Assembly (NCBI GenBank): GCA_013407085.1
Contig: JACCGJ010006488.1
Coordinates: 1-64,000, forward strand
Direction of reading: 5' to 3'
Length of the DNA stretch: 64,000 nt
DNA from: Atriophallophorus winterbourni
Lineage: Eukaryota; Platyhelminthes; Trematoda; Plagiorchiida; Microphallidae
In this document: positions 21,201-44,090 of the stretch, piece by piece
Numbering within the stretch: the first letter of the stretch is position 1
How the letters are laid out: each line of letters starts with the position of its first letter
Position numbers and translations under genes: made by a program
Notes under the pieces: generated by a model
Told to the model about the DNA's origin: nothing
Databases searched by the model: none
The model's input: only the letters and a program-made list of their open reading frames with translations

Positions 21201-24200
21201 GAGCGTGGTTGGTAATTTGTCTGCAATTCAGGTTAAACACATGCTGCTAAAACTTGACGCACCATCTATTTACTGCTGATCTCTTTTGTCTGGTACTTTT
21301 TAAAACCAGACAATGTCTCCTCAGTGACTGAACGGATTTTTGAAGAAAAGGAAGAGACAACATGTTTGACCTTGTAAGCAATTGTTGTAAACGGCTGGCA
21401 CGGTCGACATTTTCAAGCACGTGAGACAACAGACATGCGGATGAGTTAAACCCATAGACTTGAAATGATTGTTCTTCCCAGCCATATCTCTGAAATAAAA
21501 ATTTTGACAAGAAAATGTATTCAAAATTTATATACTTAATACACGATATTCCATAGCTGTGAAGGGCAATCAGAAGGCCTTGAGAATGCTTTACTTGAAA
21601 ACCCACATTTGATATCCGAATTTGTGTTTTTGTCATGTGATAAATAGCTTATCGGTTTTACCAATAGGGATTATCCGGTTCGATCACTCATTAAAACCTC
21701 AATGGAAGTGGATTCTTTGCCTATGCCTCATGAATCTGGCCACGATTCCAGTGTTCTACACATACGTCGTCATCTCAACCCATGTCGTCCAAATTGACTC
21801 TGAGATTTGCAGCTTGGTAGAAAGTCCAAGTGCAATGAATTTAACGGACACGTTACTGAATGCTTATTGGCGAAATATTTGGACTCGATTCAGAAACAGT
21901 AAAGAACAATACAGGAAAGTTATCAAACCAGATTCGCCAAAAAATTTTCTTCGAGCGACAATCGAAATGTGCGGGCATTACACCGGTGGCGGTTTACTCC
22001 ATATGGTCAACCACGATGATTTTATAAATTTTCCAAATATACTAGAAGCGATAGCAGACCGTGTAATGCTTTTATTTAAGTACGTTTACTTGCGGAAAAA
22101 TTTGCTTTGAATTTCTCTATACCATTTTTTTATATTATTAATGATTTACGTTCAAGGTCATTGAATCTTTTTTTTCCCGTCAGTAATTTAGTTCCTCCGT
22201 AGTTGCCGGATTAATGTTATGGATAATCAATATATGGTGTTGTTGCCCACGTTAAGTCACTATCGCCCGTAGATGTGTGATAGCCATCACAGGATTAGTT
22301 CTTACTCAGGCGTCACTCACGACGCTACTTCGATTCTAAAACTGATATTTATTTCGCAAAGTTCAAAGTGAAACGCAGCCGTCGATTGATCGACGTAAGT
22401 TCAAAACTCTCGGAGATATGTCAAGTCAGCAGCCAAACTTATTTTATTAATTTTATTCTATTCTTATTTATTTAAGTTGAATAACTTTTCATCACATCTC
22501 GTGTGTACGGTGCATCAACGAAAATACGTAACGTAAATAGCATATTTCGTGTCGCCAGTGTTCGTCCATGAATAATATTGATGAAAGCATTGTGTGAGTC
22601 ATAATCATTAAACTTCGAAAAGCGAATAATGATCCTGTCTGAAAAACGAATATCACGCAAACAGCGTGCAATTGACTTTGGTTGGTTGAGAACCTTCCAT
22701 CGCAGTGAGAATTCCGCGAAAGAAGGGTCCTCCCACATCTGTCTGCTTAGTCATTCAAAACGCTTTGAAGAATTAGATCATAGTATGCTTGCATTGTACA
22801 TTCATAGTCTATATCAACCAATTGATCTCAACATACAATTCTTCTTCTTTGAATTTTCTTGGACGAAAGCGTTCCTGTTGATTTATTATGTTTACAGGAC
22901 TTTTTAAAAAGTCACGTCAAGACGCGAAGTACTTCTTATATTCGTCTGTCTAGTCTTTCTAAATAATCTAGCAAATGAAGCTTAGATAATGACCCCCACT
23001 CACTTTACGTCATTGTAAATAAAGAGTTTTGTAAGTGTTAGTCACACTTACCCAAGTTGATTCAAGGTAGTTCATGTTTCAAGGTTTATAATGGTCTAAA
23101 TAGCAGCAAGCATAAATATTACAATACGATGTTAGAAAGTAGAAAATGTACGTGTATGAATATAAGATACGCATTCCGTGACTGGTCTGAAGTATATATT
23201 CATGATCCTTGGGCATATCTTTGGCGAAAATTTCCTTAATACCCGTTTGAGAATATTCAGGGCACATTTTGCATTAGCACAGGCAGAGTTAGTTTGAAGT
23301 GAGCTTTTTAAAGCGAGACTACCCAGTCACCCAAATCATATTCTGCACTGCAAATTTCGAGAACAAGTGAACCTTTATAATATGTGAACTCTACCTTATT
23401 CCCCATGTTCATGAACCTGAATTAGTTGAAGTTAAATTTCTGTTTGTGCGTCAACGACCAATTATGAAACTTATCCAGATCTTTTCGTAATACAAAACAG
23501 TATTCTGGGCTACGGATGCAAATCCATATATTTATCTCATCCGAAAATAACGAAATGTAAAATCGAACAAGTTCCGGCATTTCATTATTATAAACCAGAG
23601 AGAAGATAGGATTTGCGTAGTGCTATTTGTTAAGTAGTCATTTAGCCAATTCAACAAATTGTTGGTGATACCAAGCATTTCGGGCTTCTGCTGCAGTAGG
23701 ATGTGGTTAACTCGATAATATGCTTGGGAGATATCTAGATAACAGGCATGAATTGCTTGTGTCCAATCATCCCGCGTTATCAGTAAACTAGATAAAAAAG
23801 AATAATTCCGTCTAAATTCATTCTGTCATCTCGTTTCACGGTCATGGCGAATAAGTGCCATGCCGGGTAATTCTAGTTAGCATTTTGTTTCGTGAGTCGT
23901 ACCCATGTTTCCGTTTCGACGATGTTATCTGATGAACATTCCGGAAAAAACGGCACAAAGTTAATCGATTTTGTTGCCCAGACCTTGTGCGTTTGTGCAG
24001 AAACAATTTATAATAGTTTTTCTCAGCAAGGATTAGGTGTGGGAAAGGCGGCTAGCGAAGTGCAGAATATTTGGTAATCCGAATCCTCTCTAGTCGGCAT
24101 CTGAACGTTTTTTGCTAGCAAGGATGCCTAATCGGTTGTACTGTTGTAATACTGTGATCTATAATGTCGGCTGCATTTGTGTCCGTCACGTAAGCTACTC

Positions 24201-27200
24201 GTTGGCTTGCTGATTTTTCTATTGGACGTTGTGTTGCAACTATCTGTCCTATATGAAGTTTCGATGCGTTTAGTCAGTGAAAACAGCTAAAATAGGACGG
24301 GTTTTGGGCGTTGATCTCCCTCGGTAGACGTTCACAACAAGTTTTCATTTTCATTCGAATTAAAGTGACAATATGCTGAGATTCTGTCACGAAAATACTT
24401 CAGCCTTGCCTGAATGCGCTAAATATACATATAAGCTCGTGATAACTCGTTTCATTAGGGACAATCGCTTTATAGAACAACACTCACCTCAAAATCTGAA
24501 ATTCAATCTTTCGGCAGCATCTCACGATACTTATAAGCTTATAATTTAATTTACTTCACATTCACTACAATATTATTATTAATATATAAATTGTACTTAT
24601 TGTTACCATGGAATAGATTACTTTTGAGGTCGCTCCAAGATGACATCGTAGATGAATACAAAATTATCAAAGCTCTGCTAAATTTGTCTACAAAGTCCGA
24701 ATTGATGGTAAGTACCGCATCGATCAATTTTCACTGAATTAATTCGATTTTACACTTCTCTAATAATATATTAGTAATATATTCTGATGAAAACTGAAAT
24801 AGTTGAAGATGAAATTTTGGTTGTGGATGGATGTGCATGGCAACCAGTGTGGTACTTCCTGAATCCACATATTTCCACAGGAATACGCAATGCGGCATGA
24901 AAGTTACAGTCTCATTGTTTACTACGTTTACAGCTATCAGTTAAACCCAATTAATCGGGGTGCCGTTTGATTTACATCGGTGAGATCTCAGTTGACTTAT
25001 CGCAAAAACCACACTGACTGGTCCTAGCTTGATGATGCTGTTTTGGACTGTGTCTAAAGTGAATGATCAACCTCAACAATTCTTCAACTCGCAAGTGGAT
25101 ATGAAAGGACATAATGCATCAATAATGACCTAATTCTAACTGATACGACTGAAAGAGGAATGTTAATTTGGCTAAATAATTTGATTGCTTCAAATATAGA
25201 ACGGTTGAGCGTGTAGAAAATCGCGCTAAAATCAACGTCAATAACGGAACCAGAGAGTAGTCATCCAATACTTGGACTACAATTTGAAGCAACCGATAAC
25301 AGCAGCATTTCGAACAATCCTCGTTTCTTATACAAATACTGCACCATGTTAAACAAGTTTAGGCGAGCTAGACTGATCAATACGATTCATGAAACGTTTG
25401 ATTTTACCGTGGGAAATTAATTTTCCATTATTATTAATATTGCTGTTGTTGATGTTGTTGTTGTTGTTATTTTTAGCAAGACGATTATTGTTACCACACA
25501 TTAGATTGATTCGGCATTATTTGCTTTTTGTGAATCGATTCATCATTCTGATCCTTACGACCACGTAATTTTGGCTAATTTTCCTTCATTTTCCTTACAG
25601 AGATTGGCAGCAACAGTTTCCCCTGACAAAATTGCACCCGAAATTATCGTTGGAAATCTTCAGACAAGTGGATCAGACGTTGATTTATTAAATCGTATAC
25701 GAATCAGAATCCAAGGAAGACAAAGCAAAAAGATAGAATTGCAAGCGTGTTTGAATGATCTCAATGAACTTGCGAAAGAAATGAATAAAACGTTAGAAGA
25801 ATCCGGTTTAACGGAGCGATTGGACAAGTTGAAAACGGTATGCCTATATTTAGACTCATGTGGAATTCTTCGTTGTTATTAGTTCGAATTTATTTCCTGC
25901 TAGTGACTCATTTTTCCATCTATCCTTGGTTGATCGTATTATACACGCGGATCATTGAAAATGAATTGTATGCCACGTTAAAGCGGTTGTATTTGTCACG
26001 AATATCGGTGAATCCATTATTGAAATTTTTGTTGCTTTGAGACTGCTGAATAATTGAGTATCTTTATTTTTCTTTTGTATTAGTTTGGGTAATAATTTTC
26101 GGTGTAATGGGAAGGCAAAGCTTATCTCCAGATCCCGTTGCTGCCATCTTCACATTCGCCTTGCAGTGAAATATTCGTTTTTCGACTACAAATATTGGTC
26201 GCTGAATGATGGTTACTGACAGTTTTCCACTATTGTCAGTATTACTCCAAGCCTGGCAGATTACCGGCACATCAAGGGGAAATGAATATGAATGAAGTTC
26301 GTTTTAATGAAATCAATGAATAAAGGAAAATTTAGGAATGGCAAGCATTGCCACTGTCCCATTGACATAAAATGATAAATCTTAATGCTAGTATAGAAAA
26401 CATATTTGACGCGGAATTTGGTGCCAGAATACGGGCAGTATTCACAGGTGGAATATATCCCATAAACCTGTGCTCATCGACTTTCTAGCGTAGTTCAGGA
26501 ATTGGTAAATAGTATCATATGAGATGGAAAACCTTGAAATTTATGTTAGTTTTTGGCCAGTATATTCAATGTAGCGTTGAATCGGATTTCTAGCGTAAAA
26601 TATTCGGACGCCCACATTTTGCGATCTTATCGAGCCACACGATCGGCTTTCTGCTGTCGTCACTTATCAGCTGGTGATAGCTTCGACCGATTTTTCAGTT
26701 TTCGACGCATAATACGTTAACCTGAATCACACACAAAGTCTATTTACATAAGAACTACTAGCATACGCTGCTTCAAAACCGGTAATTGTTTAACATTATA
26801 AGCCGAATTCCGGAATATTATCCAAACTCAACCAGTCATCAAAGTTATACTGGAATGTCATTACTAAATACGGTTCGTACAACGAACCACAATGTTCAAA
26901 CACAGAATCACAAATTGATTCTTGGTCAAGCACTCAAGGCGTTTATGGATGACTAAAGTGCCCGGGATGTGAGCAACACACAAGTGAGCAACAACAACAA
27001 GTATAGTTTGACAGCTTAACCAGCGTGCTGTCTCGTGTGACCACTTTTCCGAACATCGTGCGATTTTCGGCCACGTTTTTCACATCCGGCGTTTGCCCAT
27101 CTGAGGCCGATCGATGAACCCGAAGAACTTATGAGGTCCACCACCGTTGCTTCAATAGCACCATCATCAAACGGGATCCTCAAATGGGGGACACCTGTAA

Positions 27201-28974
27201 TGTGTGTGCATGGAACGTGAATGCATGGATATTTTGAGAACTTGTACAATTCAGCAGTATTGAACAAGCTAACGAAAGATTGAATGCATGTTTATGAAAA
27301 TACTTTGGAATACAAGTAAGTTATTTGATTGAAATATCCACAGTTATATGAATTGCCGACGCACACACCCCACGACAAGTTTATTGCTGATTATATTCAT
27401 TAGTTATAGAACTTAAGGATAAATGGATTTATGGTTAAAAGGTTAATACATTACAAAACCACAGGATTATGGTATGAATAAAAATGTGAAAAATAAAGTA
27501 TAAAATTAATAGAGAATATCAAATGTAACGTTCACGAATGACGTTCTTTGGCATGTGTAAGTCAAGTTTCGCCATGAACATCACCCGGCATGGAGGGTCC
27601 ACCACATGTTGGCGTAGGGAATTCCAAAGAAATATAGCACGTACGGCGAAACAATTGCGCCAAGAAACTTGGGACGTAAAGGGATAAGGTATTTCCGCGT
27701 GTCACTTTCGCATCACACACATCGGGCAAATGTCTTAGTGGTTATCCTTTGATAAACACAATTCACTAGATATGAATACTATAGCGCCGAATCCTCATAG
27801 GGTAAAGTCACATAGACACAGTAGTCTTTCTGTGTACGGAACATTGTGAAACGCCATCAATAACTTTGTTGCTCTGTGATAGATTTTATAAAAGAGATCG
27901 ATATCTTTTCAGTGCCAATCAGCCCAAAACTCTAATAGTTACTCCATAGTCGGCTGAAGACGTTAATTATCATTGTTAACGTTACCACCAAAATCTTCAA
28001 AATATTCTTCAAAAGATACCTAAACATCGGTTAGCATGTCGATACATATCCTGAAAATGAACCGTGATCTTCAGGTTTCCACTAATCCATACTCCAATTT
28101 GTTTTTCCAACGGGATCCAACTCAAGTTTTCATGTCCCAATCGATATGTCCAAATAACATTCTTGCCAAGAAGGAGCATCTTACTTTTCCGTATGTTAAA
28201 TGTCATATCATTCATGGCCGACCAATTTGACACGTTGTCCAAATCCATCAACAGTTTCTCACAATCATCTGCAGAACTGATTAGAGTGCAAATTATTCAT
28301 ATCATCCGTGAACGTGACAATTTTAGATTATATGAAGATCGAGCTTAGCACGTATCCTTTTGGGACACAGCTGGTGGTTGTAAACATTTGGGATAGCACT
28401 CAGTTTACTTTAACTCATATATGGCGATCTGGTAGTCGCACAATTATGAAAGGATTGGCTCGCATATTCTTAAACATATCAATTTATGAAGATGCCAATT
28501 GTGATTGACTCTGTCAAAGGCTTTAGTAATGTCTAATTACAAACGTGAATGCCAGAACTTCTATCCAACTCCTTCGTCAAGTCGTCTAACGCAATCCCAA
28601 CGTAATCCAGCACAACCTATAGTGAAATTCGTATTCATATTCGTTTTCATATCATCATTCCATTAATTTTGTTAACTCGTTTTATCCCAATATAGCTCGC
28701 TACAGGAGACCCGTACACATTCGTTGAACAATTTTGGGAAACAAATGGACAGAATTTGATTGATCACTTCACTGACATCTATCATCAAGCCTTTCAACCC
28801 TTTATACAAGGAGCTTTTCCCTGCAGTCGGTTATATTTGATATATACCAACGTGAAAGATACTGTTTGCAATCCAAGTGGATTCCCTAACCACGTCGGCA
28901 TCCATTCGTTAAATATCCTCTTATTTATCTTGTTCCTTCAAGTGGCGATTTTATTCCTCATTTTCATGCAGTAA
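12003..28974 (+). CDS. Prominin (CD133-like) five-span membrane glycoprotein, nine exons
   Basis: Join of 12003-12269, 12997-13263, 16210-16473, 18326-18475, 20670-20904, 21668-22079, 24617-24707, 25601-25837 and 28696-28974. All junctions are GT/AG and all phases agree, giving 733 residues. Predicted membrane spans are near residues 31-56, 95-118, 366-390, 408-431 and 712-733, the prominin order with two large extracellular loops. Loop cysteines near 182, 442, 496, 684 and 699 sit where vertebrate prominins have theirs, for example an I-C start to loop 2 and a C-x14-C pair before TM5. N-glycosylation sequons occur at N452, N554 and N624. Prominins organise plasma-membrane protrusions and bind cholesterol; that is family knowledge. 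Human PROM1 has about 865 residues, so the signal peptide and N-terminal segment are missing or lie upstream, and the cytoplasmic tail is absent. Family call is strong; start and C-terminus are uncertain. Confidence 0.88.
12270..12996 (+). other. Prominin intron 1
   Basis: Donor GTAAGA and an acceptor preceded by a good pyrimidine tract (TTCTCAACTTTCAG). No recognised repeat or gene inside; the open frames here are AT-rich and resemble nothing known to me. Confidence 0.7.
12997..13263 (+). CDS. Prominin exon 2: TM2 and start of extracellular loop 1
   Basis: A phase 0-0 exon of 89 codons that begins FHHRMPMF and leads at once into a hydrophobic span (LYACSIASAVLLIIFFGFAC). It is followed by a helical, acidic extracellular stretch. 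The two spans are separated by about 38 mostly charged residues, as in the prominin cytoplasmic loop. The donor is GTAAGT. Residues 90-178 of the joined protein. Confidence 0.85.
13605..14033 (-). pseudogene. CR1-like LINE ORF2 C-terminal fragment
   Basis: 142 uninterrupted residues with the usual tail of CR1/jockey-type reverse transcriptases. A segment like ERIAQLNLFDFPYRR, then RGDLILLYK, is followed by FYSVRVCFTWNSLPSTV and a terminal KTKLDEFV helix. Endonuclease and reverse transcriptase cores are absent, so this is a 5'-truncated insertion antisense to the host gene. No target-site duplication was identified. Confidence 0.85.
14165..14360 (+). pseudogene. RTE-like reverse transcriptase C-terminal remnant
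   Basis: One frame reads ALMYGSEI followed by W-T-I-H-P-R and then a KLKAFCL segment. This resembles the common LLYGSETW...LRxF motif at the end of RTE/R4-type reverse transcriptases. At least one stop or frameshift interrupts it. It is a short decayed fragment on the coding strand of the host intron. Confidence 0.55.
16210..16473 (+). CDS. Prominin exon 3: helical extracellular loop 1
   Basis: Phase 0-0, 88 codons. The sequence is largely helical and heptad-like (for example LINVVKELQADQEALVAEVD) with three cysteines: one at the fourth residue and two near the end (AEC and HVC). Prominin loop 1 has a comparable helical stretch followed by a closely spaced cysteine pair. The donor used is GTGCGT. 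Residues 179-266 of the joined protein. Confidence 0.85.
16790..17180 (+). pseudogene. CR1-like LINE C-terminal fragment, sense orientation
   Basis: One frame reads LKLIYHRAIKVVSGLCILP, then RLGECTLDYTHIRADLILTY. After a frame break the next part reads MLLWNKLPSEVVPTRNKVIF. This is the standard CR1-type ORF2 tail. It is the only clear CR1 fragment in the window lying on the + strand, so it represents an insertion separate from the minus-strand clusters. Confidence 0.75.
17820..18070 (-). pseudogene. CR1-like LINE C-terminal fragment
   Basis: The minus strand reads LFDYPRRRLRGDSILVYSM followed by L-N-T-A-N-H and then RLFNLRGTHKARAHT. These are the same blocks as in the 13605-14033 fragment. 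No longer open frame survives. Likely a sister copy of the same LINE family. Confidence 0.7.
18326..18475 (+). CDS. Prominin exon 4: extracellular loop 1
   Basis: Fifty codons, phase 0-0, starting RVDVPATIGEE and ending KIQRMLEE. Helical with a central hydrophobic patch (QFLMYPALFVPGL). It corresponds to the part of prominin loop 1 after the cysteine pair. The start at 18326 is chosen because the alternative AG two bases downstream would break frame. Donor GTTTGT is weaker than the others. Confidence 0.78.
18476..20669 (+). other. Prominin intron 4
   Basis: Holds a minus-strand LINE fragment (18640-19720). From 19720 to 20669 no gene or repeat was recognised; a 107-codon minus ORF at 20096-20419 has no recognisable features. 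Acceptor TTTATGCTATTTCAG is strong. Confidence 0.65.
18640..19720 (-). pseudogene. CR1-like LINE 3' half (reverse transcriptase end and C-terminus)
   Basis: The open part at 18742-19098 reads as an ORF2 tail (TKRRILNDLMLKILHTGNHP, then FFSVRICFTWNYLPEEI, then SKLDEFI). The stretch up to about 19720 continues into reverse transcriptase sequence with several frame breaks. The same family recurs at 31985-32960 and 43390-43907, by nucleotide similarity of the C-terminal and thumb regions. Confidence 0.75.
20670..20904 (+). CDS. Prominin exon 5: end of loop 1 and TM3
   Basis: Starts LEAGTTFTELVQ in phase 0 and ends one base into a codon. An amphipathic helix leads into a strong hydrophobic span (LLVFMSVALTVVVLVLLLLL). 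This is TM3. The donor GTAAGC gives phase 1, and the first two bases of exon 6 complete an arginine codon, an independent check on both borders. Confidence 0.87.
20905..21667 (+). other. Prominin intron 5
   Basis: No recognised repeat or gene. A 129-codon minus ORF (21247-21636) crosses it but shows no known domain. Confidence 0.6.
21668..22079 (+). CDS. Prominin exon 6: TM4 and first half of loop 2
   Basis: Enters with two bases and exits after two bases of a lysine codon. After QWKW comes a span (ILCLCLMNLATIPVFYTYVV) that is TM4. The following loop has cysteines at 442 and 496. The second is followed by HYTGGGLLHMVNH, which aligns with the C-x5-YGTLHL segment of vertebrate prominin loop 2. 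One sequon lies at N452. This is the last exon outside the duplicated block, so it is the common splice donor for either downstream cassette. Confidence 0.9.
22470..24400 (-). pseudogene. Decayed CR1-like LINE in intron 6, copy 1
   Basis: The minus strand carries a C-terminal piece (22472-22738). A reverse transcriptase piece at about 23300-23790 reads ISQAYYRVNHILLQQKPEML and onward. An endonuclease-proximal piece at about 23830-24060 is similar in DNA to 421-590 of this window. All frames are broken. The same arrangement occurs in the second duplicated block. Confidence 0.75.
24617..24707 (+). CDS. Prominin exon 7 (cassette 1): loop 2
   Basis: 91 bases. One base completes the lysine codon from exon 6, then 30 codons read LLLRSLQDDIVDEYKIIKAL and so on to SELM before donor GTAAGT. 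It contains a sequon NLS at 554. The corresponding exon in cassette 2 is identical over all 91 bases. The acceptor CCATGGAATAG has a poor pyrimidine tract. Confidence 0.85.
24708..25600 (+). other. Prominin intron 7, copy 1
   Basis: Contains a short GTT-rich microsatellite near 25440-25475 just before the acceptor region. A minus-strand stretch near 25130-25340 could be old reverse transcriptase sequence but I cannot assign it. Acceptor TTTTCCTTACAG is strong. Differences from copy 2 become denser towards the 3' end. Confidence 0.65.
25601..25837 (+). CDS. Prominin exon 8 (cassette 1): helical loop 2
   Basis: Seventy-nine codons, phase 0-0, from RLAATVSPDK to DKLKT. The second half is strongly helical and coiled-coil-like (KKIELQACLNDLNELAKEM), with cysteine 612 and sequon N624. 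This corresponds to the helical region of prominin loop 2 that precedes the terminal cysteine pair. Compared with cassette 2 there are 16 base differences giving eight residue changes. Confidence 0.87.
25838..28695 (+). other. Prominin intron 8, copy 1
   Basis: Holds an antisense LINE fragment (27510-28620). The 25840-27500 part has no recognised gene. A segment near 26870-26960 recurs in diverged form near 31210-31310, so it is probably an unclassified repeat. Acceptor is TCCCAATATAG. Confidence 0.65.
27510..28620 (-). pseudogene. CR1-like LINE (family B) 3' half in intron 8
   Basis: The minus strand has the reverse transcriptase palm/thumb end (NWSAMNDMTFNIRKSKMLLL at 28009-28251) and a C-terminal tail nearer 27560-27720. 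Frames are broken. Nucleotide similarity links it to 10440-11480, 38800-39960, 49370-50720, 54180-55545 and 59405-60780. Confidence 0.8.
28696..28974 (+). CDS. Prominin exon 9 (cassette 1): end of loop 2, TM5 and stop
   Basis: Ninety-two codons and TAA. Starts LATGDPYTFVEQFWETNG. Cysteines 684 and 699 bracket SRLYLIYTNVKDTV, matching the last cysteine pair of prominin loop 2. The protein ends inside or just after TM5 (LNILLFILFLQVAILFLIF then MQ) with no charged tail. A possible donor ATGCA/GTAATT overlaps the stop, so splicing to a tail exon is conceivable. It differs from cassette 2 at 17 bases and 11 residues. Confidence 0.87.
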   Translation, partial: LATGDPYTFVEQFWETNGQNLIDHFTDIYHQAFQPFIQGAFPCSRLYLIYTNVKDTVCNPSGFPNHVGIHSLNILLFILFLQVAILFLIFMQ

Positions 28975-29124
28975 TTTGTATTGCTCTACCCTTCAGCTAT
29001 TAAAACATGCTGTCGCGCAAGCCTGCTAATGTGTTGTTCAACGCAGAACATACATATTTTTGCAAACATAGTTCTTATTCGGTGTAAATTGTGTAAACAT
29101 TTTGATTTGAAAACAATGTTTTAG

Positions 29125-29130
29125 ATTAAA
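29125..29130 (+). promoter_or_regulatory. Candidate poly(A) signal ATTAAA, cassette 1
   Basis: ATTAAA lies about 150 bases after the stop and is followed about 30 bases later by a GT-rich run (TTTGTTGGTTGTGAG). A second ATTAAA at 28999-29004 is closer to the stop. The equivalent of the first site in copy 2 (40449-40454) reads ATTAAG. Confidence 0.4.
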
Positions 29131-29341
29131 GTACACCAAAATTTACGTTGAATCGATTTGTTGGTTGTGAGCCTCGGTTCGAATACTTGGTAGCGCTGAT
29201 CTCTTAGCCTCTATCGCATGAACACATTTAAACGTGAAAGTGGAATTGCATTGATGTATAGTACGCTACTGGTTCATTTTCCATGAGGATGTACACGCGG
29301 TATTAGTTCGTACATAGGTTAGAATGCAAAGCTGTTGTAGT

Positions 29342-29758
29342 TTATTTCTTGACAATTGCTGTAACCATTTGACACCTGGGAATGATGGAAATCTGTGATG
29401 TGTATTTGATCCGAAGCGTACAACCGTGACGGGTCTTCAACCTGGATAGTCCGATGGCCATGGTGTTTATCATAAACGGATTAAAATTGTCATCGATAGT
29501 ACTTATCTGACAAACAAAAGGTTTTGTGAAATTCGGGTAGACGATGACTAAAATTAAAGACATTTTAACAGCGTGATTCAGTGAACTGGAAATGTTTACT
29601 CGCAATGAAAATAAACAACAATAATGTGAATGGTTACTTGTTGGTGATTGACCGGTCTCTGTTTTTAAGTTGGTTGTGAATGTTTTAATATTATTTAAGT
29701 ATTGTATATCAACTCTAACATAAACGTCAACTACGCGGACTTGCAAGTATTTCTTCAT
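29342..29758 (-). CDS. Unrecognised 138-codon ORF antisense to the prominin 3' flank
   Basis: Starts MKKYLQVRVVDVYVRV and ends MVTAIVKK. A hydrophobic stretch around MSLILVIVYPNF could be a signal-like segment if an internal start is used. I recognise no domain. In the duplicated copy the frame is split by a one-base change into 40889-41083 and 40666-40887, and the second half there differs at nine residues. It may be non-coding. Confidence 0.2.
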   Translation of the reverse strand: MKKYLQVRVVDVYVRVDIQYLNNIKTFTTNLKTETGQSPTSNHSHYCCLFSLRVNISSSLNHAVKMSLILVIVYPNFTKPFVCQISTIDDNFNPFMINTMAIGLSRLKTRHGCTLRIKYTSQISIIPRCQMVTAIVKK

Positions 29759-31984
29759 CAGTAGCTAAAGAGTAATAAATAATTTTGATCACGTCATACA
29801 GAACAAATAATAAAGCTTGCGTCTAATAAGTTTCTTCGGATCTGGAAGGCAAAATTACACATTTTGTCAGTTCAGTATAACTATTTCTAAATTCAGTATC
29901 TACCCATATATAAAATTGCTTGAATTCCATCACACTGCAATTAGGGTAATCAGACGATTCTGATTATTACTGAGAAGATATAGTTTGGTGATAGGATTCC
30001 AAATTGTCTGAGTTTCGATTATGGCAAAAAGAGTAAAATTAACAAAAATTGCTTAAATGAACTTGCGCGTTAGTTATTAAATGACTAAAGAAAATAATAG
30101 AATGAAAACCTTTATGTTGTTACCATTTACGTCATTTATAGATTCTTACTTCAACCAAAATTCAACCATTGTGTTGGGATTGGATTATTGACAAACCATT
30201 CTAATTGGGACTTAGCTTTTTCCCAACGTGAAATTAAATCTTAGGATGCGAATCCGGATTTATCATCGAACTCGTGAAATTATTTTTAGATAAAATTCAG
30301 AACAACTGACGAAATTCAGGTCACGAATACGCATGCATAATGAGTGGCGTCAACCACGATACCGTTCGTGTGCTCTCGACATAATTTTCAGAATACTTAT
30401 ACTACACATTTATAGCCCCATACGTCAACCCAAACCACAGTGTGTTATCGTCCGACGAACTGAGAAGAAAATTGTGGGCATAAGACAAAATGACACATAA
30501 AGGGAGAGTCGTCAATTGAAATATAATAAGAACACGAAATGATTATATCTACTGGTTCCCACTGAGTGCCAGAGGACGAACTTTTAGACACGTGAGTTCA
30601 TGTATAGCTAAGAAACTTGTTACTTAATAATAGAGATGGTCTAACAGTTGTATGCAGTCGTAAATATAATCGTGAGTTTCTTGTTATTGATTGGGTCATC
30701 AGCAATCAAGGTCACAAGGCTGAATGTATTTTCTTCCAGATGTGGCTGATACAAGTTTTGACACGGATTCCCTCAATAGATTGGTATTGCGAACTTTATC
30801 CAGCAGGTAGATGTTATATCATTCGATTTGTAAAGTCTCCTCAATAAGATGTGTAACAGTGTTATTCAAATGACTGCAGCTACTACCGGAATCCAATCGA
30901 ATTATTGTGGTGTAGGTGCGTTAGCGTTGAGTGCTAATCACAATATTTCTGGTGATATGCTTAACGCCAAACATCGAACATATTTAATAGCATGAAATAC
31001 AAAATTTTACGCTCGAACGTTACAGAAGCGATGGTAAAAATAGCATAACAATACGAACCAGTCTTAAACAATTAAATTGTGTTTCTAAATTGCCCACCAC
31101 TTACCTAATAGAAATGATATCTGGTTGATTCCTTTATCGTTTGTCGACCGTCAGATAAGTTTCAGTCTTGTTTTAAGCATTGAGGTGGAATAATATTGTA
31201 ATGTTCAAGGTTTTCGTTCTTTGGGGTGCGTACAACGAACTAACCACACTGTTCAAATGAAGATTCAGAAATGAAACAAGTTGAAACGCTTGAGTCGCTT
31301 TCGGATGACCAATAATTTGTGTTACGAACATCATCTGTATTCTCGATCCGCATCCATTTTCTGCGCGTTTGCCACTTTACGGTAGACATAATAAGCATAG
31401 ATTCCCCAGTATACCTTAGTCTGATATAAACAACGCCCTAAGCATGTAGCTTATAATCGTTATGAAAGATGTATTCTGAAATACTGGATTTCAACATTAA
31501 GGTTTTACGTAAAAACATATTGCTTCATTAAAAGTCGCTAAATTTTAATTAATACCTAGTTTCTGTCTCTTCCTAACAATGGTAACCACCGGTTGTAAAT
31601 TGTAAATGATGATGTTATCAGGAACATATTCGGCTCCATTGGGATTTGAATATCGTCAAAAATCGAAATTTTCCCTTTGCATTACGCTGATAATAAATGT
31701 CACCCTCCGCATCTGTGGAGGTAATCAAGAACTTGAGTAACCTCTTTCCCGGGTGCGGAGAACAGCGTCACGAGTCTAGTTAATAGGTGATTTTAACCTA
31801 CCGGATAACGGCTGCGACACTCAGATGGTTTGTGATTAGATTTTAGGGCCATCTCAATTGGCTACACTCTAGTAAGTTTCAACTGCACGTTATTGAAAAG
31901 ACTAGGTACGTGAATGGACACTCACTATCCACACTGCACATTGATCTGTCAAATGGTATGGCTCAACTATACGAAGAATGACCA

Positions 31985-32960: not shown

Positions 32961-33300
32961 GAGAGGGTGATGCAGACGCAAACTTGAAATGGAACGAAGG
33001 ATTAAAGAATATATATGTAAAAATTGTATTAAACCGAATATTAAAGCTTTTCAGCCAAACAGTATTTGAATTTAATGTTCAAATTATTGAAAATATATAT
33101 ACAAGAATATTGTAAGCCTATCATGGAAGCCTGAAATCGCTGATGATAACATCAGTAGTCGTGTCTTCATACGTTGCTAGTCAACATGTATTCTTCGATG
33201 TTTGATTTAAAAAACGGCATAAATAAAGGCGACAATTTCTGGTTCTGGTTAGTTTTAATAAGTCTGGGAATTATTGTAACAAGTTAATGCTTTAAGACAC
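32961..33300. other. Unassigned unduplicated spacer
   Basis: AT-rich sequence between two LINE fragments. I see no gene, repeat or structure in it. Confidence 0.4.
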
Positions 33301-33636
33301 AACAGCATTAAGGTATGAATGAATCTGTGAAAAATATACTACTTGAAAAGGAATAGAGAATATCAAATGTATGGCAAACGAATGATGTTATTTTGCATAT
33401 GTTAGTCCAATTTCGCCAGGCAAGGAGAGTCCACTGCACGTTGTGTTAGGCTAATTCAAGAAAAATATATATCACGTAAGGTGAAAAAATGGCGCTGACA
33501 ATCAATACGGGAAGTTGGGACGAAAATGAATAAGGTATGTCCGCGTGTCAAGTTCTATTCACAAACCGAACAATTGTTTCAGAGGATGTTCTTTGGTAGA
33601 CACAATTCTATAGATAAGAATGATACCGCGTCGTAT
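33300..33636 (-). pseudogene. LINE family B C-terminal fragment abutting duplication copy 2
   Basis: Similar in DNA to 10440-10740 and 54180-54485 (the block with GAGAGTCCAC, then AATCAATACGGGAA, then CACAATTCTATAGATAAGAA). It stops exactly where the second duplicated block begins. A further piece of the same family, from further 5' in the element, starts right after that block ends at 43907. Confidence 0.7.
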
Positions 33637-33819
33637 CCATCCCAGGATTAGTTCTTACTCAAGCGTCACTCACGACGCTACTTCGATTCTAAAACTGATA
33701 TTTATTCCGCAAAGTTCAAAGTGAAACGCAGCCGTCGATTGATCGACGGAAGTTCAAAACTCTCGGAGATATGTCAAGTCAGCAGCCAAACTTATTTTAT
33801 AAATTTTATTCTATTCTTA

Positions 33820-35750
33820 TTTATTTAAGTTGAATAACTTTTCATCACATCTCGTGTGTACGGTGCATCAACGAAAATACGTAACGTAAATAGCATATTT
33901 TGTGTCGCCAGTGTTCGTCCATGAATAATATTGATGAAAGCATTGTGTGAGTCATAATCATTAAACTTCGAAAAGCGAATAATGATCCTGTCTGAAAAAC
34001 GAATATCACGCAAACAGCGTGCAATTGACTTTGGTTGGTTGAGAACCTTCCATCGCAGTGAGAATTCCGCGAAAGAAGGGTCCTCCCACATCTGTCTGCT
34101 TAGTCATTCAAAACGCTTTGAAGAATTAGATCATAGTATGCTTGCATTGTACATTCATAGTCTATATCAACCAATTGATCTCAACATACAATTCTTCTTT
34201 GAATTTTCTTGGACGAAAGCGTTCCTGTTGATTTATTATGTTTACAGGACTTTTTAAAAAGTCACGTCAAGACGCGAAGTACTTCTTATATTCGTCTGTC
34301 TAGTCTTTCTAAATAATCTAGCAAATGAAGCTTAGATAATGACCCCCACTCACTTTACGTCATTGTAAATAAAGAGTTTTGTAAGTGTTAGTCACACTTA
34401 CCCAAGTTGATTCAAGGTAGTTCATGTTTCAAGGTTTATAATGGTCTAAATAGCAGCAAGCATAAATATTACAATACGATGTTAGAAAGTAGAAAATGTA
34501 CGTGTATGAATATAAGATACACATTCCGTGACTGGTCTGAAGTATATATTCATGATCCTTGGGCATATCTTTGGCGAAAATTTCCTTAATACCCGTTTGA
34601 GAATATTCAGGGCACATTTTGCATTAGCACAGGCAGAGTTAGTTTGAAGTGAGCTTTTTAAAGCGAGACTACCCAGTCACCCAAATCATATTCTGCACTG
34701 CAAATTTCGAGAACAAGTGAACCTTTATAATATGTGAACTCTACCTTATTCCCCATGTTCATGAACCTGAATTAGTTGAAGTTAAATTTCTGTTTGTGCG
34801 TCAACGACCAATTATGAAACTTATCCAGATCTTTTCGTAATACAAAACAGTATTCTGGGCTACGGATGCAAATCCATATATTTATCTCATCCGAAAATAA
34901 CGAAATGTAAAATCGAACAAGTTCCGGCATTTCATTATTATAAACCAGAGAGAAGATAGGATTTGCGTAGTGCTATTTGTTAAGTAGTCATTTAGCCAAT
35001 TCAACAAATTGTTGGTGATACCAAGCATTTCGGGCTTCTGCTGCAGTAGGATGTGGTTAACTCGATAATATGCTTGGGAGATATCTAGATAACAGGCATG
35101 AATTGCTTGTGTCCAATCATCCCGCGTTATCAGTAAACTAGATAAAAAAGAATAATTCCGTCTAAATTCATTCTGTCATCTCGTTTCACGGTCATGGCGA
35201 ATAAGTGCCATGCCGGGTAATTCTAGTTAGCATTTTGTTTCGTGAGTCGTACCCATATTTCCGTTTGGACGATGTTATCTGATGAACATTCCGGAAAAAA
35301 CGGCACAAAGTTAATCGATTTTGTTGCCCAGACCTTGTGCGTTTGTGCAGAAACAATTTATAATAGTTTTTCTCAGCAAGGATTAGGTGTGGGAAAGGCG
35401 GCTAGCGAAGTGCAGAATATTTGGTAATCCGAATCCTCTCTAGTCGGCATCTGAACGTTTTTTGCTAGCAAGGATGCCTAATCGGTTGTACTGTTGTAAT
35501 ACTGTGATCTATAATGTCGGCTGCATTTGTGTCCGTCACGTAAGCTACTCGTTGGCTTGCTGATTTTTCTATTGGACGTTGTGTTGCAACTATCTGTCCT
35601 ATATGAAGTTTCGATGCGTTTAGTCAGTGAAAACAGCTAAAATAGGACGGGTTTTGGGCGTTGATCTCCCTCGGTAGACGTTCACAACAAGTTTTCATTT
35701 TCATTCGAATTAAAGTGACAATATGCTGAGATTCTGTCACGAAAATACTT
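33820..35750 (-). pseudogene. Decayed CR1-like LINE, copy 2
   Basis: Duplicate of the element at 22470-24400 with only a few base differences. The C-terminal piece is at 33825-34091 and the reverse transcriptase piece near 34650-35140. Confidence 0.75.
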
Positions 35751-35966
35751 CAGCCTTGCCTGAATGCGCTAAATATACATATAAGCTCGTGATAACTCGT
35801 TTCATTAGGGACAATCGCTTTATAGAACAACACTCACCTCAAAATCTGAAATTCAATCTTTCGGCAGCATCTCACGATACTTATAAGCTTATAATTTAAT
35901 TTACTTCACATTCACTACAATATTATTATTAATATATAAATTGTACTTATTGTTACCATGGAATAG

Positions 35967-36057
35967 ATTACTTTTGAGGTCGCTCCAAGATGACATCGTA
36001 GATGAATACAAAATTATCAAAGCTCTGCTAAATTTGTCTACAAAGTCCGAATTGATG
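35967..36057 (+). CDS. Prominin alternative exon 7 (cassette 2)
   Basis: Identical over 91 bases to the exon at 24617-24707, including the GAATAG acceptor and GTAAGT donor. It can accept the two-base overhang from exon 6 in the same way, so a transcript skipping the first cassette would remain in frame. Confidence 0.75.
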
Positions 36058-36952
36058 GTAAGTACCGCATCGATCAATTTTCACTGAATTAATTCGATTT
36101 TACACTTCTCTAATAATATATTAGTAATATATTCTGATGAAAACTGAAATAGTTGAAGATGAAATTTTGGTTGTGGATGGATGTGCATGGCAACCAGTGT
36201 GGTACTTCCTGAATCCACATATTTCCACAGGAATACGCAATGCGGCATGAAAGTTACAGTCTCATTGTTTACTACGTTTACAGCTATCAGTTACACCCAA
36301 TTAATCGGGGTGCCGTTTGATTTACATCGGTGAGATCTCAGTTGACTTATCGCAAAAACCACACTGACTGGTCCTAGCTTGATGATGCTGTTTTGGACTG
36401 TGTCTAAAGTGAATGATCAACCTCAACAATTTTTCAACTCGCAAGTGGATATGAAAGGACATAATGCATCAATAATGACCTAATTCTAACTGATACGACT
36501 GAAAGAGGAATGTTAATTTGGCTAAATAATTTGATTGCTTCAAATATAGAACGGTTGAGCGTGTAGAAAATCGCGATAAAATCAACGTCAATAACGGAAC
36601 CAGAGAGTAGTCATCCAATACTTGGACTACAATTTGAAGCAACCGATAACGGCAGCATTTCGCACAATCCTCGTTTCTTATACAAATACTGCACCATGTT
36701 AAACAAAATTAGGCGAGCTAGACTGATCAATACGATTCATGAAACATGTTTGATTTTACCGTTGGAAATTAATTTTCCATTATTATTGATATTGCTGTTG
36801 TTGATGTTGTTGTTGTTGTTATTTTTAGCAAGATGATTATTGTTACCACACATTAGATTGATCCGGCATTATTTGCTTTTTGTGAATCGATTCATCATTC
36901 TGATCCTTACGACCACGTAATTTTGGCTAATTTTCCTTCATTTTCATTACAG

Positions 36953-37189
36953 AGATTGGCAGCAGCAGTTAAACCTTACAAAATTGCACCCGAAGTGACC
37001 GTTGGAAATATTCAGACTAGTGGATCAGACGTTGATTTATTAAATCGTATACGAAGCAGAATCCAAGGAAGACAAAGCAAAAAGATAGAATTACAAGCAT
37101 GTTTGAATGATCTCAATGAACTTGTAAAAGAAATGAATAAAACTTTAGAAGAATCCGGTTTAACGGAGCGATTGGACAAGTTGAAAACG
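36953..37189 (+). CDS. Prominin alternative exon 8 (cassette 2)
   Basis: Intact, phase 0-0, 79 codons. The acceptor TTTTCATTACAG and donor GTATGC are preserved. Against cassette 1 the changes are T5A, S7K, D9Y, I15V, I16T, L20I, I35S and A58V (numbering within the exon). Six lie in the first 20 residues, and the coiled-coil-like half is mostly kept. About 12 of the 16 base differences alter the protein. Cysteine and sequon are unchanged. Confidence 0.78.
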
Positions 37190-40020
37190 GTATGCCTATA
37201 TTTAGACTCATGTGGAATTCTTCGTTGTTATTAGTTCGAATTTATTTCCTGCTATTTACTCACTTTTTCCATCCATCCGTGGTTGAGCGTATTATACACG
37301 CGGATCATTGAAAATGAATTGTATGCTACGTTAAAGCGGTTGTATTTGTCACGAATAGCGGTGAATCCATTATTGAAATTTTTGTTGCTTTGAGACTACT
37401 GAATAATTGAGTATCTTTATTTTTATATTGTATTAGTTTGGGTAATGGGAAGGCAAAGCTTATCTCCACATCCCGTTGCTGCCATCTTCACAGTCGCCTT
37501 GCAGTGAAATATTCGTTTTTCGACTCCAAATATTGGTCGCTGAGTGATGGTAACTGACAGTTTTCAACTATTGTCGATAATACTCCCAGCCTGGCAGATC
37601 ACCGGCACATCAAGAGGAAATGAATATGAATGAAGTTCGTTTTAATGAAATCAATGAATAAAGGAAAATGTAAGAATGGCAAGCATTGCCACTGTCCCAT
37701 TGACATAAAATGATAAATCTTAATGCTAGTATAGAAAATATATTTGACGCGGAATTTGGTGCCCGAATACGGGCAGTATTCACAGGTGGAATATATCCCA
37801 TAAACCTGTGCTCATCGACTTTCTAGCGTAGTTCAGGTATTGGAAAAAGGTATCATTTGAGACGGGAACCTTGAAATTTATGTTAATTTTTGGCCAGCAT
37901 ATTCAATGTAGCGTTGAATCGGATTTATAGCGTAAAATATTCGGACGCCCACATTTTGCGATCATATCGAGCCACACGATCGGCTTTCTGCTGTCGTCAC
38001 TTATCAGTTAGTGATAGCTTCGACCGATTTTTCAGTTTTCGACGAATAATACGTTAACCTGAATCACACACAAAGTCTATTTACATAAGAACTACTAGCA
38101 AACGCTGCTTCAAAACCGGTAATTGTTTAACAATATAAGCCGAATTCCGGAATATTATCCAAACTCAACCAGTCCTCAAAGTTATACTGGAATATCATTG
38201 TTAAATGTTCAAACACAGAATCACAAATTGATTCTTGGTCAAGCACTCAAGGCGTTTATGGATGACTAAAGTGCCCGGGATGTGAGCAACACACAAGTGA
38301 GCAACAACAACAAGTAAATTTTGACAGCTTAACCTGCGTGCTGTCTCGTGTGACCACTTTTCCGAACATCGTGTGATTTTCGGCCACGTTTTTCACATCC
38401 GGCGTTTGCCCATCTAGGCCGATCGATGAACCCGAAGAACTTATGCGGTCCACCACCGTTGCGTCAATAGCACCATCATCAAACATGATCCTCAAATGGC
38501 GGACACCTGTAATGTGTGTGCATGGAACGTGAATGCATGGATATTTTGAGAACTTGTACAATTCAGCAGTATTGAACAAGCTAACGAAAGATTGAATGCA
38601 TGTTTATGGAAATACTTTGGAATACAAGTAAATTATTTGATTGAAATATCCACAGTTATATGACTTGCCGACGCACACACCCCATGACAAGTTTATTGCT
38701 GATTATATTCATCAGTTATAGAACTTAAGGATAAATGGATTTATGGTTAAAAGGTTAATACATTACAAAACCACAGGATTATGGTATGAATAAAATGTGA
38801 AGAATAAAGTATAAAATTAATAGAGAATATCAAATGTAACGTTCACGAATGATGTTCTTTGGCATGTGTAAGTCAAGTTTCGCCATGAACATCGCCCGGC
38901 ATGGAGGGTCCACCACATGTTGGCGTAGGGAATTCCAAAGAAATATAGCACGTACGGCCAACAAATTGCGCCAAGAATCAATACAGGAAATTGGGTCGTA
39001 AAGGGATAAGGTATTTCCGCGTGTCACTTTCGCATCACACACATCAGGCAAATGTCTTAGTGGTTATACTTTGATAGACACAATTCACTAGATATGAATA
39101 CTATAGCGCCGAATCCTCCTTAGGGTAAAGTCACATAGACACAGAAGTCATTCTGTGTACGGGTCAATTTGAAGAGACATCAATAACTTTGTTGCTCTGT
39201 GATAGATTTTATAAAAGAGAACGATATCTTTTCAGTGCCAATTAGCCCAAACCTCTAATGTTTACTCCATAGTCGGCCGAAGGCGTTAATTATCATTGTC
39301 AACGTTATCACCAAAATCTTCAAAATATTCTTTCAAAAGATACCTAAACATCAGTTGACATGTGGATACATATTCTGAAAATGAACCGTGATCTTCAGGT
39401 TTCCACTAATCCATATTTCAATATCTTTATCCAACGGGCTCCAACTCAAGTTTTCATGTCCCAATCGATATGTCCAAATAACATTCTTGCCAAGAAGGAG
39501 CATCTTACTTTTCCGTATGTTGAATGTCATATCATTCATGGCCGACCAATTTGACACGTTGTCCAAATCCATCAACAGTTTCTCACAATCATCTGCAGAA
39601 CGGATTAGAGTGCAAATTATTCATATCATCCGTGAACGTGACAATTTTAGATTATATGAGGATCGGGCTTAGCACGTATCCTTTTGGGACTCAGCTGGTG
39701 ATTGTAAAAATTTGGGATAGCACTCAGTTTACTTTAACTCATATATGGCGATCTGGTAGTCGCACAATTATGAAAGGATTGGCTCGCATATTCTCAAACA
39801 TATCAATTTATGATGATGCCAATTGTGATTGACTCTGTCCTCAGCTTTAGTAAAGTCTAAGTAACAGACGTGAATGCCATTACTTCTATCCAACTCCTTC
39901 GTCAAGTCGTCTAGCGCAATTCTAACGAAATCCAGCACAATCTTTAGTGAAATTCGTATTCATATTCGTTTTCATATCATCATTCTATTAATTTTGTTAA
40001 CTCGTTTGTTCCCAATATAG
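37190..40020 (+). other. Intron between alternative exons 8 and 9
   Basis: Counterpart of 25838-28695, about 5% different by eye with several small indels. It includes the family B LINE duplicate. No gene recognised. Confidence 0.6.
38800..39960 (-). pseudogene. LINE family B fragment, copy 2
   Basis: Duplicate of 27510-28620. The frame at 38830-39051 gives a readable C-terminal tail containing LLAVRAIFLWNSLRQHVVDP and AKLDLHM, which confirms the CR1-type assignment of this family. The thumb region reads NWSAMNDMTFNIRKSKMLLL. Confidence 0.8.
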
Positions 40021-40299
40021 CTCTCTACAGGAGACCCGTACACATTCGTTGAACAATTTTGGGAAACAAATGGACAGCATTTGATTGATCACCTCACTGT
40101 CATCTATCATCAAGCCTTTCAAGATTTTCTACAAAGAGCTTTTCCCTGCGATCGATTATATTTTATATATACAAACGTGAAAGATACTGTTTGCAATCCA
40201 AGTGGATTTCATAACCACGTCGGCATCCATTCGTTAAATATCCTCTTATTTATCTTGCTCCTTCAAGTGGCGATTTTATTCCTCATTTTCATGCAGTAA
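40021..40299 (+). CDS. Prominin alternative exon 9 (cassette 2): end of loop 2, TM5 and stop
   Basis: Intact 92 codons plus TAA. Residue changes against cassette 1 (numbering within the exon) are A2S, N20H, F25L, D27V, P35D, I37L, G39R, S44D, L48F, P64H and F80L. Seven of the 11 fall between residues 20 and 44, just before and beside the first cysteine. Both cysteines and the TM5 segment are kept. Only about three of 17 base differences are silent. The same possible GTAATT donor overlaps the stop. Confidence 0.8.
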   Translation, partial: LSTGDPYTFVEQFWETNGQHLIDHLTVIYHQAFQDFLQRAFPCDRLYFIYTNVKDTVCNPSGFHNHVGIHSLNILLFILLLQVAILFLIFMQ

Positions 40300-43200
40300 T
40301 TTGTAACGCTCTACCCTTCAGCTATTAAAACATGCTGTCGCGCAAGCCTGCTAATGTGTTGTTCAACGCAGAACATACATATGTTTGCAAACATAGTTCT
40401 TATTCGGTTAAATTGTGTAAACATTTTCATTTGCAAACAATGTTTTAGATTAAGGTACACCAACATTTACGTTGAATCAATTTGTTGGTTGTGAGCCTCG
40501 GTTCGAATACTTGCTAGCGCTGATCTCTTAGTCTCTATCGCATGAACACATTTAAACGTGAAAGTCGAATTACATTGATGTATAGTACGCTACTGGTTCA
40601 TTTTCCATGAGGATGTACACGCGGTATTACTTCGTACACAGGTTAGAATGCAAAGCTGCTGTAGTTTATTTCTTGACAATTTCTGTAACCATTGGACACC
40701 TGGGAATGATGGTAATCTGTGATGTGTATTTGGTCCGAAGCGTACAACCATGACGGGTCTCCAACCTGGATAGTCCGATGGCCATGGTGTTAATCATAAA
40801 CGGATTAAAATTGTCATCGATAGTACTTATCTGATAAACAAAAGGTTTTTTGAAATTCATGTAGACGATGACTAAAATTAAATACATTTTAACAGCGTGA
40901 TTCAGTGAACTGAGAAATGTTTACTCGTAATGAAAATAAACAACAATATTGCGAAAGGTTACTTATTGGTGATTGACCGGTCTCTGTTTTTAAGTTGGTT
41001 GTGAATGTTTCAATATTATTTAAGTATTGTATATCAACTCTAACATAAACGTCAACTACGCGGACTTGCAAGTATTTCTTCATCAGTAGCTAAAGAGTAA
41101 TAAATAATTTTGATCACGTCATACAGAACAAATAATTAAGCTTGCGTCTAATAAGTTTCTTCGGATCTGGAAGGCAAAAGTACACATTTTGTCAGTTCAG
41201 TATAACTATTTCTAAATTCAGTATCTACCCATATATAAAATTGCTTGAATTCCATCACACTGCAATTAGGGTAATCAGACGATTCTGATTATTACTGAGA
41301 AGATATAGTTTGGTGATAGGATTCCAAAATGTCTGAGTTTCGATTATGGCAAAAAAGAGTAAAATTAACAAAAATTGCTTAAATGAACTTGCGAGTTAGT
41401 TATTAAATGACTAAAGAAAATAATAGAATGAAAACCTTTATGTTGTTACCATTTACGTCATTTATAGATTCTTACTTCAACCAAAATTCAACCATTGTGT
41501 TGGGATTGGATTATTGACAAACCATTCTAATCAGTCACCGATTTTGGGACTTAGCTTTTTCCCAACGTGAAATTAAGTCTTAGGATGCGAATCCGGATTT
41601 ATCATCGAACTCGTGAAATTATTTTTAGATAAAAGTCAGAACAACTGACGAAATTCAGGTCACGAATACGCATGCATAATGAGTGGCGTCAACCACGATA
41701 CCGTTCGTGTGCTCTCGACATAATTTTCAGAATACTTATACTACACATTTATAGCCCCATACGTCAACCCAAACCACAGTGTGTTATCGTCCGACGAACT
41801 GAGAAGAAAATTGTGGGCATAAGACAAAATGACACATAAAGGGAGAGTCGTCAATTGAAATATAATAAGAACACGAAATGATTATATCTACTGGTTCCCA
41901 CTGAGTGCCAGAGGACGAACTTTTAGACACGTGAGTTCATGTATAGCTAAGAAACGTGTTACTTAATAATAGAGATGGTCTAACAGTTGTATGCACTCGT
42001 AAATATAATCGTGAGTTTCTTGTTATTGATTGGGTCATCAGCAATCAAGGTCACAAGGCTGAATGTATTTTCTTCCAGATGTGGCTGATACAAGTTTTGA
42101 CACGGATTCCCTCAATAGATTGGTATTGCGAACTTTATCCAGCAGGTAGATGTTATATCATTCGATTTGTAAAGTCTCCTCAATAAGATGTGTAACAGTG
42201 TTATTCAAATGACTGCAGCTACTACCGGAATCCAATCGAATTATTGCGGTGTAGGTGCGTTAGCGTTGAGTGCTAATCACAATATTTCTGGTGATATGCT
42301 TAACGCCAAACATCGAACATATTTAATAGCATGAAATACAAAATTTTACGCTCGAACGTTACAGAAGCGATGGTGAAAATAGCATCAACAATACTTTCAT
42401 CGTCAATTTTGTCGAACCAGTTTTGTATGGAACAATTAAACGAGCTACAAATTGTGTTTCTAAATTGCCCACCACTTACCTACTAGAAATGATGTCTAGT
42501 TGATTCCTTTATCGTTTGTCGACCGTCAGATCAGTTTCAGTCTTGTTTTAAGCATTAAGGTGAAATAATATTGTAATGTTCAAGGTTTTCGTTCTTTGGG
42601 GTGCGTACAACGAACTAACCACACTGTTCAAATGAAGATTCAGAAATGAAACAAGTTGAAACGCTTGAGTCGCTTTCGGATGACCAATAATTTGTGTTAC
42701 AAACATCATCTGTATTCTCGATCCGCATCCATTTTCTGCGTGTTTGCCACTTTACGGTAGACATAATAAGCATAGATTCCCCAGTATACCTTAGTCTGAT
42801 ATAAACAACGCCCTAAGCATGTAGCTTATAATCGTTATGAAAGATGTATTCTGAAATACCGGATTTCAACATTAAGGTTTTACGTAAAACATATTGCTTC
42901 ATTAAAAGTCGCTAAATTTTAATTAATACCAGTTTCTGTCTCTTTCTAAAAACGGTAATCACCGGTTGTAATTTGTGAATGAGGATGTTATCAGGAACAT
43001 ATTCGGCTCCATTGGGATTTGAATATCGTCAAAAATGGAAATTTTTCCTTCGCATTACGCTGATAATAAATGTCACCCTCCGCATCTGTGGAGGTAATCA
43101 AGAACTTAGGAAACCTCTTACCCGGGTACGGAGAACAGCATCACGAGTCTAGTTAATAGGTGATTTTAACCTACCGGATAACGGCTGCGACACTCAGATG

Positions 43201-43390
43201 GTTTGTGATTAGATTTTAGGGCTATCTCAATTGGCTACACTCTAGTAAGTTTCAACTGCACGTTATTGAAAAGACTAGGTACGTGAATGGACACTCACTA
43301 TCCACACTGCACATTGATCTGTCAAAAGGTCATAAATATGTATAAAACCTATGGTATGGCTCAACTATACGAAGAATGACCATGTCACCA
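40300..43390 (+). other. 3' flank of cassette 2
   Basis: Counterpart of 28975-31985. No gene recognised. The nearer ATTAAA is kept at 40324-40329 but the further one reads ATTAAG. Confidence 0.5.
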
Positions 43391-43907
43391 TGAACTCATA
43401 TTTCTTAACTCAGAATATTTTATAATAGAACAAGCAATAAGCTTAACAAATAGCACGGGGTGACGGGGCATATAGAGAATTAATATAAATAAAACTCTCA
43501 AGAATCAATGGGGACAGTCACATACCGCATGGTTCAACATGTATTCATCGACATTTGAAGCGAAAACTTTAACTGATTTCGAGCATATGATTTCTTCGGG
43601 CAAGACGTTTCACGTGAAAAAATTCTGATCGAGAAAAATTCCGACGAATATCTAGTCGATAATGTGGGATGCTTAAAGCCTTTGCATGTCTGCGGGTGTG
43701 AGTAATGTCCTTGGGCTAAAGTAAGTGTTTCAGTGAATGATTGCCTATGTGTAAAATTTTAACTACCAGCATAAAGTCACTCAGTATTCGTCGTTTGGTA
43801 AAATCATTCAGGTCAAGTTTTGACATTAGCTCTTGGAAACGCGAATTTTTGTAACGGGAGACCAACGTAGCCGCACGGTGATAAACTATGTCAAGCGAAT
43901 ATTCCTT
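43390..43907 (-). pseudogene. Truncated CR1-like LINE at end of duplication copy 2
   Basis: Duplicate of 31985-32515. It is cut at GCGAATATTC and joined directly to family B LINE sequence. Confidence 0.75.
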
Positions 43908-44090
43908 CGTTCATTCGTCTGACGCTACGAGGTAATTCGTTACACTAGAGCGATGAAATCGAAATCCATTTTGCGCCTGTGAAAACGAATTACGCGATTA
44001 GAATATGACAACCATTCTTCCTGAGACTATACATTTTATGACCTTACCAATATCAGGAAATATTGTCACCGGCGATATTTCTTCGCGGCC
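43908..44090 (-). pseudogene. LINE family B reverse transcriptase fragment
   Basis: Similar to 50500-50660 and 55330-55470 (shared blocks include GAGCGATGA-ATCGAAATCCAT and GACCTTACC). It would be the 5'-side partner of the fragment ending at 33636, with about 0.8 kb of the element missing between them. Confidence 0.65.

Follow-up and report, generated by a model that had tools for sequence, protein, structure and literature searches.

The window analysed here is a 64-kb stretch of the trematode Atriophallophorus winterbourni (contig JACCGJ010006488.1, positions 1 to 64,000; 39% G+C, zero N). It is rich in repeats, several of which match reverse transcriptase or endonuclease, and contains one spliced gene on the plus strand, whose topology fits a prominin-like protein and whose last three exons are present twice in tandem. 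Nine exons of the gene can be traced (Table 1). AG acceptors and GT donors stand at every internal exon boundary of the model, and the joined frame encodes 733 amino acids without an internal stop, whether it is completed with exons 7–9 (cassette 1) or with exons 7b–9b (cassette 2). Scans of the window gave zero Rfam matches at the gathering cut-off and zero tRNA.

A blastn self-comparison showed that the unit carrying the three exons is repeated on the same strand with 95.9% identity over 10,320 alignment columns; an earlier note on this DNA had placed the span at 22284-43907, which agrees within three bases with the blastn limits of 22281 and 43904. The central claim of that note, a tandem duplication of the three last exons with splice sites, phases, frame and stop intact in both copies, was borne out, and an AATAAA stands at corresponding positions of the two cassettes (29610 and 40935). 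When the whole model was compared with the window by tblastn, exons 7, 8 and 9 found two places each and exons 1–6 one place each, which rules out a second 5′ part or a whole second gene in the window. The exon 6 donor at 22079 falls outside the duplicated unit, has no second copy and is single, as had been stated. The copied tail is a real duplication with intact frames, not a chance resemblance. Its homologous tandem exons lie in one gene with the phase kept, the arrangement that marks tandem duplicated alternative exons, and the duplication looks fairly recent.

Table 1. Coordinates of the gene model, the duplicated unit and the junction fragments in the window
Feature	Position	Strand	Evidence or remark
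Exon 1 (TM1)	12003..12269	+	open frame, GT donor, hydrophobic segment; 5′ end uncertain
Exon 2 (TM2)	12997..13263	+	acceptor uncertain, 12928 possible in place of 12997
Exon 3 (first large loop)	16210..16473	+	AG acceptor, GT donor, frame kept
Exon 4 (first large loop)	18326..18475	+	AG acceptor, GT donor, frame kept
Exon 5 (end of first loop, TM3)	20670..20904	+	AG acceptor, GT donor, frame kept, hydrophobic segment
Exon 6 (TM4, start of second loop)	21668..22079	+	single donor AA/GTACGT (slash marks the splice site); one tblastn place
Copy 1 of unit, taken as template	22281..32507	+	blastn; LINE-like repeat crosses right end
Exon 7	24617..24707	+	AG acceptor, GT donor
Exon 8	25601..25837	+	AG acceptor, GT donor
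Exon 9 (end of second loop, TM5, TAA)	28696..28974	+	AG acceptor, TAA stop, hydrophobic segment
Retroelement fragment, left junction of copy 2	33267..33638	.	blast; 5-base overlap
Copy 2 of unit, taken as derived	33634..43904	+	blastn; both ends within retroelement sequence
Exon 7b, same sequence as exon 7	35967..36057	+	AG acceptor, GT donor
Exon 8b, 8/79 residues changed	36953..37189	+	AG acceptor, GT donor
Exon 9b, 11/92 residues changed	40021..40299	+	AG acceptor, TAA kept
Retroelement fragment, right junction of copy 2	43901..44080	.	blast; 4-base overlap
TM, transmembrane segment; LINE, long interspersed nuclear element.

Hydropathy gives five TM segments (residues 26-57, 93-127, 359-399, 409-431 and 704-733) and loops of 231 and 272 amino acids between them, which is the five-TM, two-large-loop layout of prominins. 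The topology fits the earlier identification of the gene as a prominin; the sequence lends it no support, with no Pfam match at the cut-off and with both the cysteine cluster and the cytoplasmic tail missing from the model. The cluster described in the available part of PMC10967083 for CD133, at the boundary of TM1 and the first inner loop, has no counterpart, the first cysteine being residue 101, in TM2, and in both copies the stop follows directly after TM5, leaving no cytoplasmic C-terminal domain. The lone row for Prominin (PF05478) came from the reading frame 20649-20990, with 15.0 bits against a gathering cut-off of 34.3 (E 0.0067, model positions 376-461); this frame extends into the introns on either side of exon 5, and the row ranked behind GP41 (E 0.0015). 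PF05478 was absent from the results for the 733-aa model at E ≤ 1, for exons 5 and 6 at E ≤ 10 and for exon 5 alone at E ≤ 0.1, and as exon 5 alone did not reproduce the row we discarded it as support. Such weak scores mean little here, because other rows, GP41 and a PspC TM region (E 0.0019 in the scan including exons 5 and 6), score comparably or better. The Pfam miss is not decisive either, since vertebrate and invertebrate prominins are said to be <25% identical in the available part of PMC10967083; annotated flatworm prominins exist, according to what could be seen of PMC9904461 and PMC5818524. Protein searches returned no homologue at E ≤ 0.01 among 8000 candidates scored, none at E ≤ 1 among 3485 candidates when residues 395-733 of isoform B were the query, and no PDB sequence relative at E ≤ 1 (phmmer). 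We describe the gene as prominin-like, in keeping with its topology, and stop short of assigning it to the family.

The 5′ end of the model is uncertain, its start at 12003 being merely an in-frame ATG picked by hand. A coding-like stretch at 11842-12002 lies in the same frame as exon 1 with a TGA in between and could be an additional exon set off by a short intron, and right after the exon 2 donor there is an open, cysteine-containing stretch at 13264-13420 in a different frame. The pieces of these two stretches that were scanned gave zero Pfam rows at E ≤ 10, and both were omitted from the model.

The junctions of the unit suggest how the second copy arose. A LINE-like repeat (31997-32826, like 18622-19516) runs across the end of copy 1 at 32507, whereas copy 2 breaks off within the LINE-like repeat at 43904 and is followed by a different element. 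Copy 2 looks derived, because both of its ends lie in retroelement sequence with overlaps of 4-5 bases while the LINE at the copy 1 end continues. The left-junction and right-junction fragments seem to come from one kind of element; the two have the order and strand found at 49346-50649, where they are about 0.8 kb apart, and may once have formed one element, and they are only about 70-76% like other copies of it. The 1126 bases between the copies (32508-33633) had no match after 43904 in a word-7 blastn search. Junctions within a retroelement, short overlaps and these unmatched bases together indicate that copy 2 was probably placed by template switching. A local segmental duplication on short matches would then have copied about 10.2 kb, comprising the end of intron 6, exons 7–9 and the 3′ flank, and landed it in retroelement sequence about 1.1 kb past the end of the template.

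Over the whole unit, 280/10178 aligned columns differ (about 97% alike), and the divergence is patchy rather than uniform, ranging by block from 0.2% to 4.5%: 7/268 in 22281-22548, 5/2649 in 22549-25200, 204/4557 in 25201-29800, 9/1200 in 29801-31000 and 55/1504 in 31001-32507. Three stretches without any difference (1026, 735 and 619 columns) are longer than every run in 2000 permutations, where the maximum was 459. Exon 7 lies within a near-identical block, with 0/90 differences from exon 7b among the bases compared. Two pairwise comparisons within a tandem repeat array downstream (46855-64000) are also patchy, with 1-38 and 0-18 differences per 400 columns. Because the divergence is mosaic, and likewise so in the array, it suggests gene conversion among local repeats as the simplest cause; later conversion would have kept or made parts of the copies near-identical, exon 7 included. 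The mosaic also bears on a possible assembly artefact, in which a pair of haplotypes, or a single locus read twice, was placed in series. Patches of 0.2% to 4.5% divergence could occur between two haplotypes as well, but the mosaic together with the similar patchiness of the array argues against a simple haplotype artefact, and the array, with three full units and a part unit, is not obtainable from two haplotypes. Haplotypes in series should moreover give a match to 32508-33633 after copy 2, only 4-5 bases are common at the junctions, and there is no N in the window. We regard an artefact as quite improbable.

The two predicted versions of the protein differ at 19 residues in total, with 16 base differences between exons 8 and 8b and 17 between exons 9 and 9b. 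The proposal that the isoforms would differ in the second loop and TM5 stands for the loop; TM5 is practically the same, with one F/L difference in its core (residues 707-733). For exons 8 and 9 together, the proportion of nonsynonymous differences (pN) is 0.057 and that of synonymous differences (pS) 0.093 (pN/pS about 0.61), next to 0.042 (171/4041) for noncoding sequence of the same block. Positive selection, suspected from the dense differences, found no support in the comparison of nonsynonymous with noncoding divergence (p = 0.20), and no purifying signal is significant in the same comparison or in that of nonsynonymous with synonymous divergence (p = 0.19). Protein searches found no relatives in which retention of both copies could be compared. 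The base differences are clustered, with 8 in 50 at 25601-25650/36953-37002 and 13 in 100 at 28751-28850/40076-40175; the clusters include whole-codon changes, which possibly reflect multi-base mutation or conversion from another copy. An unexpressed cassette 2 could, in principle, supply the working copy with variants of exons 8 and 9 through gene conversion. Exchange between the copies is implied by their mosaic identity, and these exons hold clustered multi-base differences, but exchange seems to have homogenised exon 7 rather than diversified exons 8 and 9, and no further source copy was found in the window. The chance that the second cassette serves in this way appears very slim.

With a complete tandem 3′ part and phases kept, one gene is in principle able to make two C-terminal variants, as the earlier note had proposed. 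Its view that the cassettes should be mutually exclusive did not hold. Eight in-frame choices after exon 6 end in exon 9 or 9b (7-8-9, 7-8-9b, 7-8b-9b, 7b-8b-9b, 7-8-8b-9b, 7-9, 7-9b and 7b-9b), and 7-8-9b, 7-8b-9b and 7-8-8b-9b show that exclusion is not forced. One stretch was tested for RNA docking that might enforce an exclusive choice, and the pairing of 22080-22280 with 22281-24616 gave nothing above shuffled controls (best −54.1 versus a shuffled mean of −57.2, standard deviation 2.8, 30 mononucleotide shuffles). The test suggested earlier, comparing junctions 22079/24617 and 22079/35967, would fail if the reads are short, because exon 7b has the same sequence as exon 7 and reads across the exon 6–7 junction cannot separate the copies; the differences between exons 8 and 8b and between 9 and 9b can tell the cassettes apart. 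Use of cassette 2 would require an intron of about 13.9 kb spanning a complete terminal exon. Cassette 1 would stay the normal 3′ end of the five-pass gene, and cassette 2 would be an intact spare 3′ end. Since it is reachable only by splicing past exon 9 and the poly(A) region, cassette 2 most likely sees little use or none.

On balance, we think it probable that a segmental duplication left cassette 1 as the normal end of the gene and cassette 2 as an intact spare, mostly unused or little used, with gene conversion acting on the copies since. Several observations weigh against this. None of the 33 differences in exons 8 and 9 creates a stop, for which the chance is 0.18 (33 random substitutions, 4000 simulations), and the exons contain no indel, compared with 13 events in 4041 noncoding columns of the block (about 1.65 expected in 513 bases, P(none) about 0.19). 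No stop and no indel together have a probability of about 0.03 if both copies drifted freely and about 0.18 if copy 2 alone did. Fewer residues are changed (19) than the 23.2 that the simulations give on average (P 0.08), which leans slightly to constraint. At the left junction, copy 1 today agrees at 4/5 overlapping bases, and the direction of copying is inferred from the junctions.

The absence of stops and indels also counts in favour of functional alternative 3′ cassettes, in which transcripts would end in 7-8-9 or 7b-8b-9b, or a mix of these, and yield two forms of the second loop. Every site, phase and stop is kept in both copies, the AATAAA is kept at the matching place, and the oyster AOX gene offers a precedent in the part of PMC5589949 that was available. 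Yet no purifying or diversifying signal is significant, no docking-type pairing rises above the controls, and the long intron past a complete terminal exon would be needed. We consider such cassettes unlikely, and give a spare tail that is idle or seldom used better odds than two regulated isoforms. A broader proposal, that the tandem three-exon cassettes produce at least two ectodomain variants, 7-8-9b and 7-8b-9b among them, with charge changes gathered in the second loop and conversion keeping exon 7 the same, would make the locus a young case of surface-protein diversification; we find this rather doubtful.

The surroundings of the gene are rich in repeats. The array at 46855-64000 consists of units of about 4.8-5.2 kb that are about 94-98% alike and start near 46855, 51671, 56490 and 61724, the last being cut by the window end; it contains minus-strand reverse-transcriptase matches (RVT_1 at 51153-51560 and 60406-60783). 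Flanking the gene, 4703-11310 and 44079-50352 are collinear and about 70-85% alike, and represent either an ancient repeat or a duplication that came earlier.

If the second cassette is used, the locus would be a young case of duplicated terminal exons becoming alternative 3′ ends, with breakpoints that can still be read; if it is unused, it would illustrate that an intact in-frame duplicate can mimic regulated alternative splicing in sequence alone. Either way, it warns that reads across shared-exon junctions cannot discriminate such cassettes. A literature search, judged mostly by titles and the beginnings of abstracts and so no proof of absence, did not meet a prominin whose last exons are duplicated.

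In Crassostrea virginica AOX, the last exon, exon 10, is duplicated and its alternative use is documented, as far as the accessible text of PMC5589949 goes. That gene resembles the present one in having a duplicated terminal part and two proteins of the same size, which are predicted in the present case. It differs in that one exon is duplicated, its copies being 63.5% alike, whereas here three exons are involved and the copies are about 97% alike by column; both oyster forms were seen in mRNA and are regulated, and the B mRNA contains the two exon copies together, whereas our case is known from the genome. Tandem duplicated exon substitution and mutually exclusive exons are described in the portions seen of PMC9741552, PMC9013439 and PMC6071210, and share with the present gene homologous tandem exons within one gene, a kept phase and isoforms, here predicted ones, that are the same outside the region. 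In those accounts, the human events are mostly ancient and highly expressed, whereas the duplication here is far less diverged, and its stop offers a possible alternative 3′ end instead of an internal choice. Prominin-1 (CD133) is likewise a five-pass membrane protein with variation towards its C-terminus. According to the available parts of PMC2924886 and PMC10967083, its variants come from different, small exons and for the most part change the cytoplasmic tail, whereas the duplicated exons here would change the second loop, and the protein has no tail after TM5.

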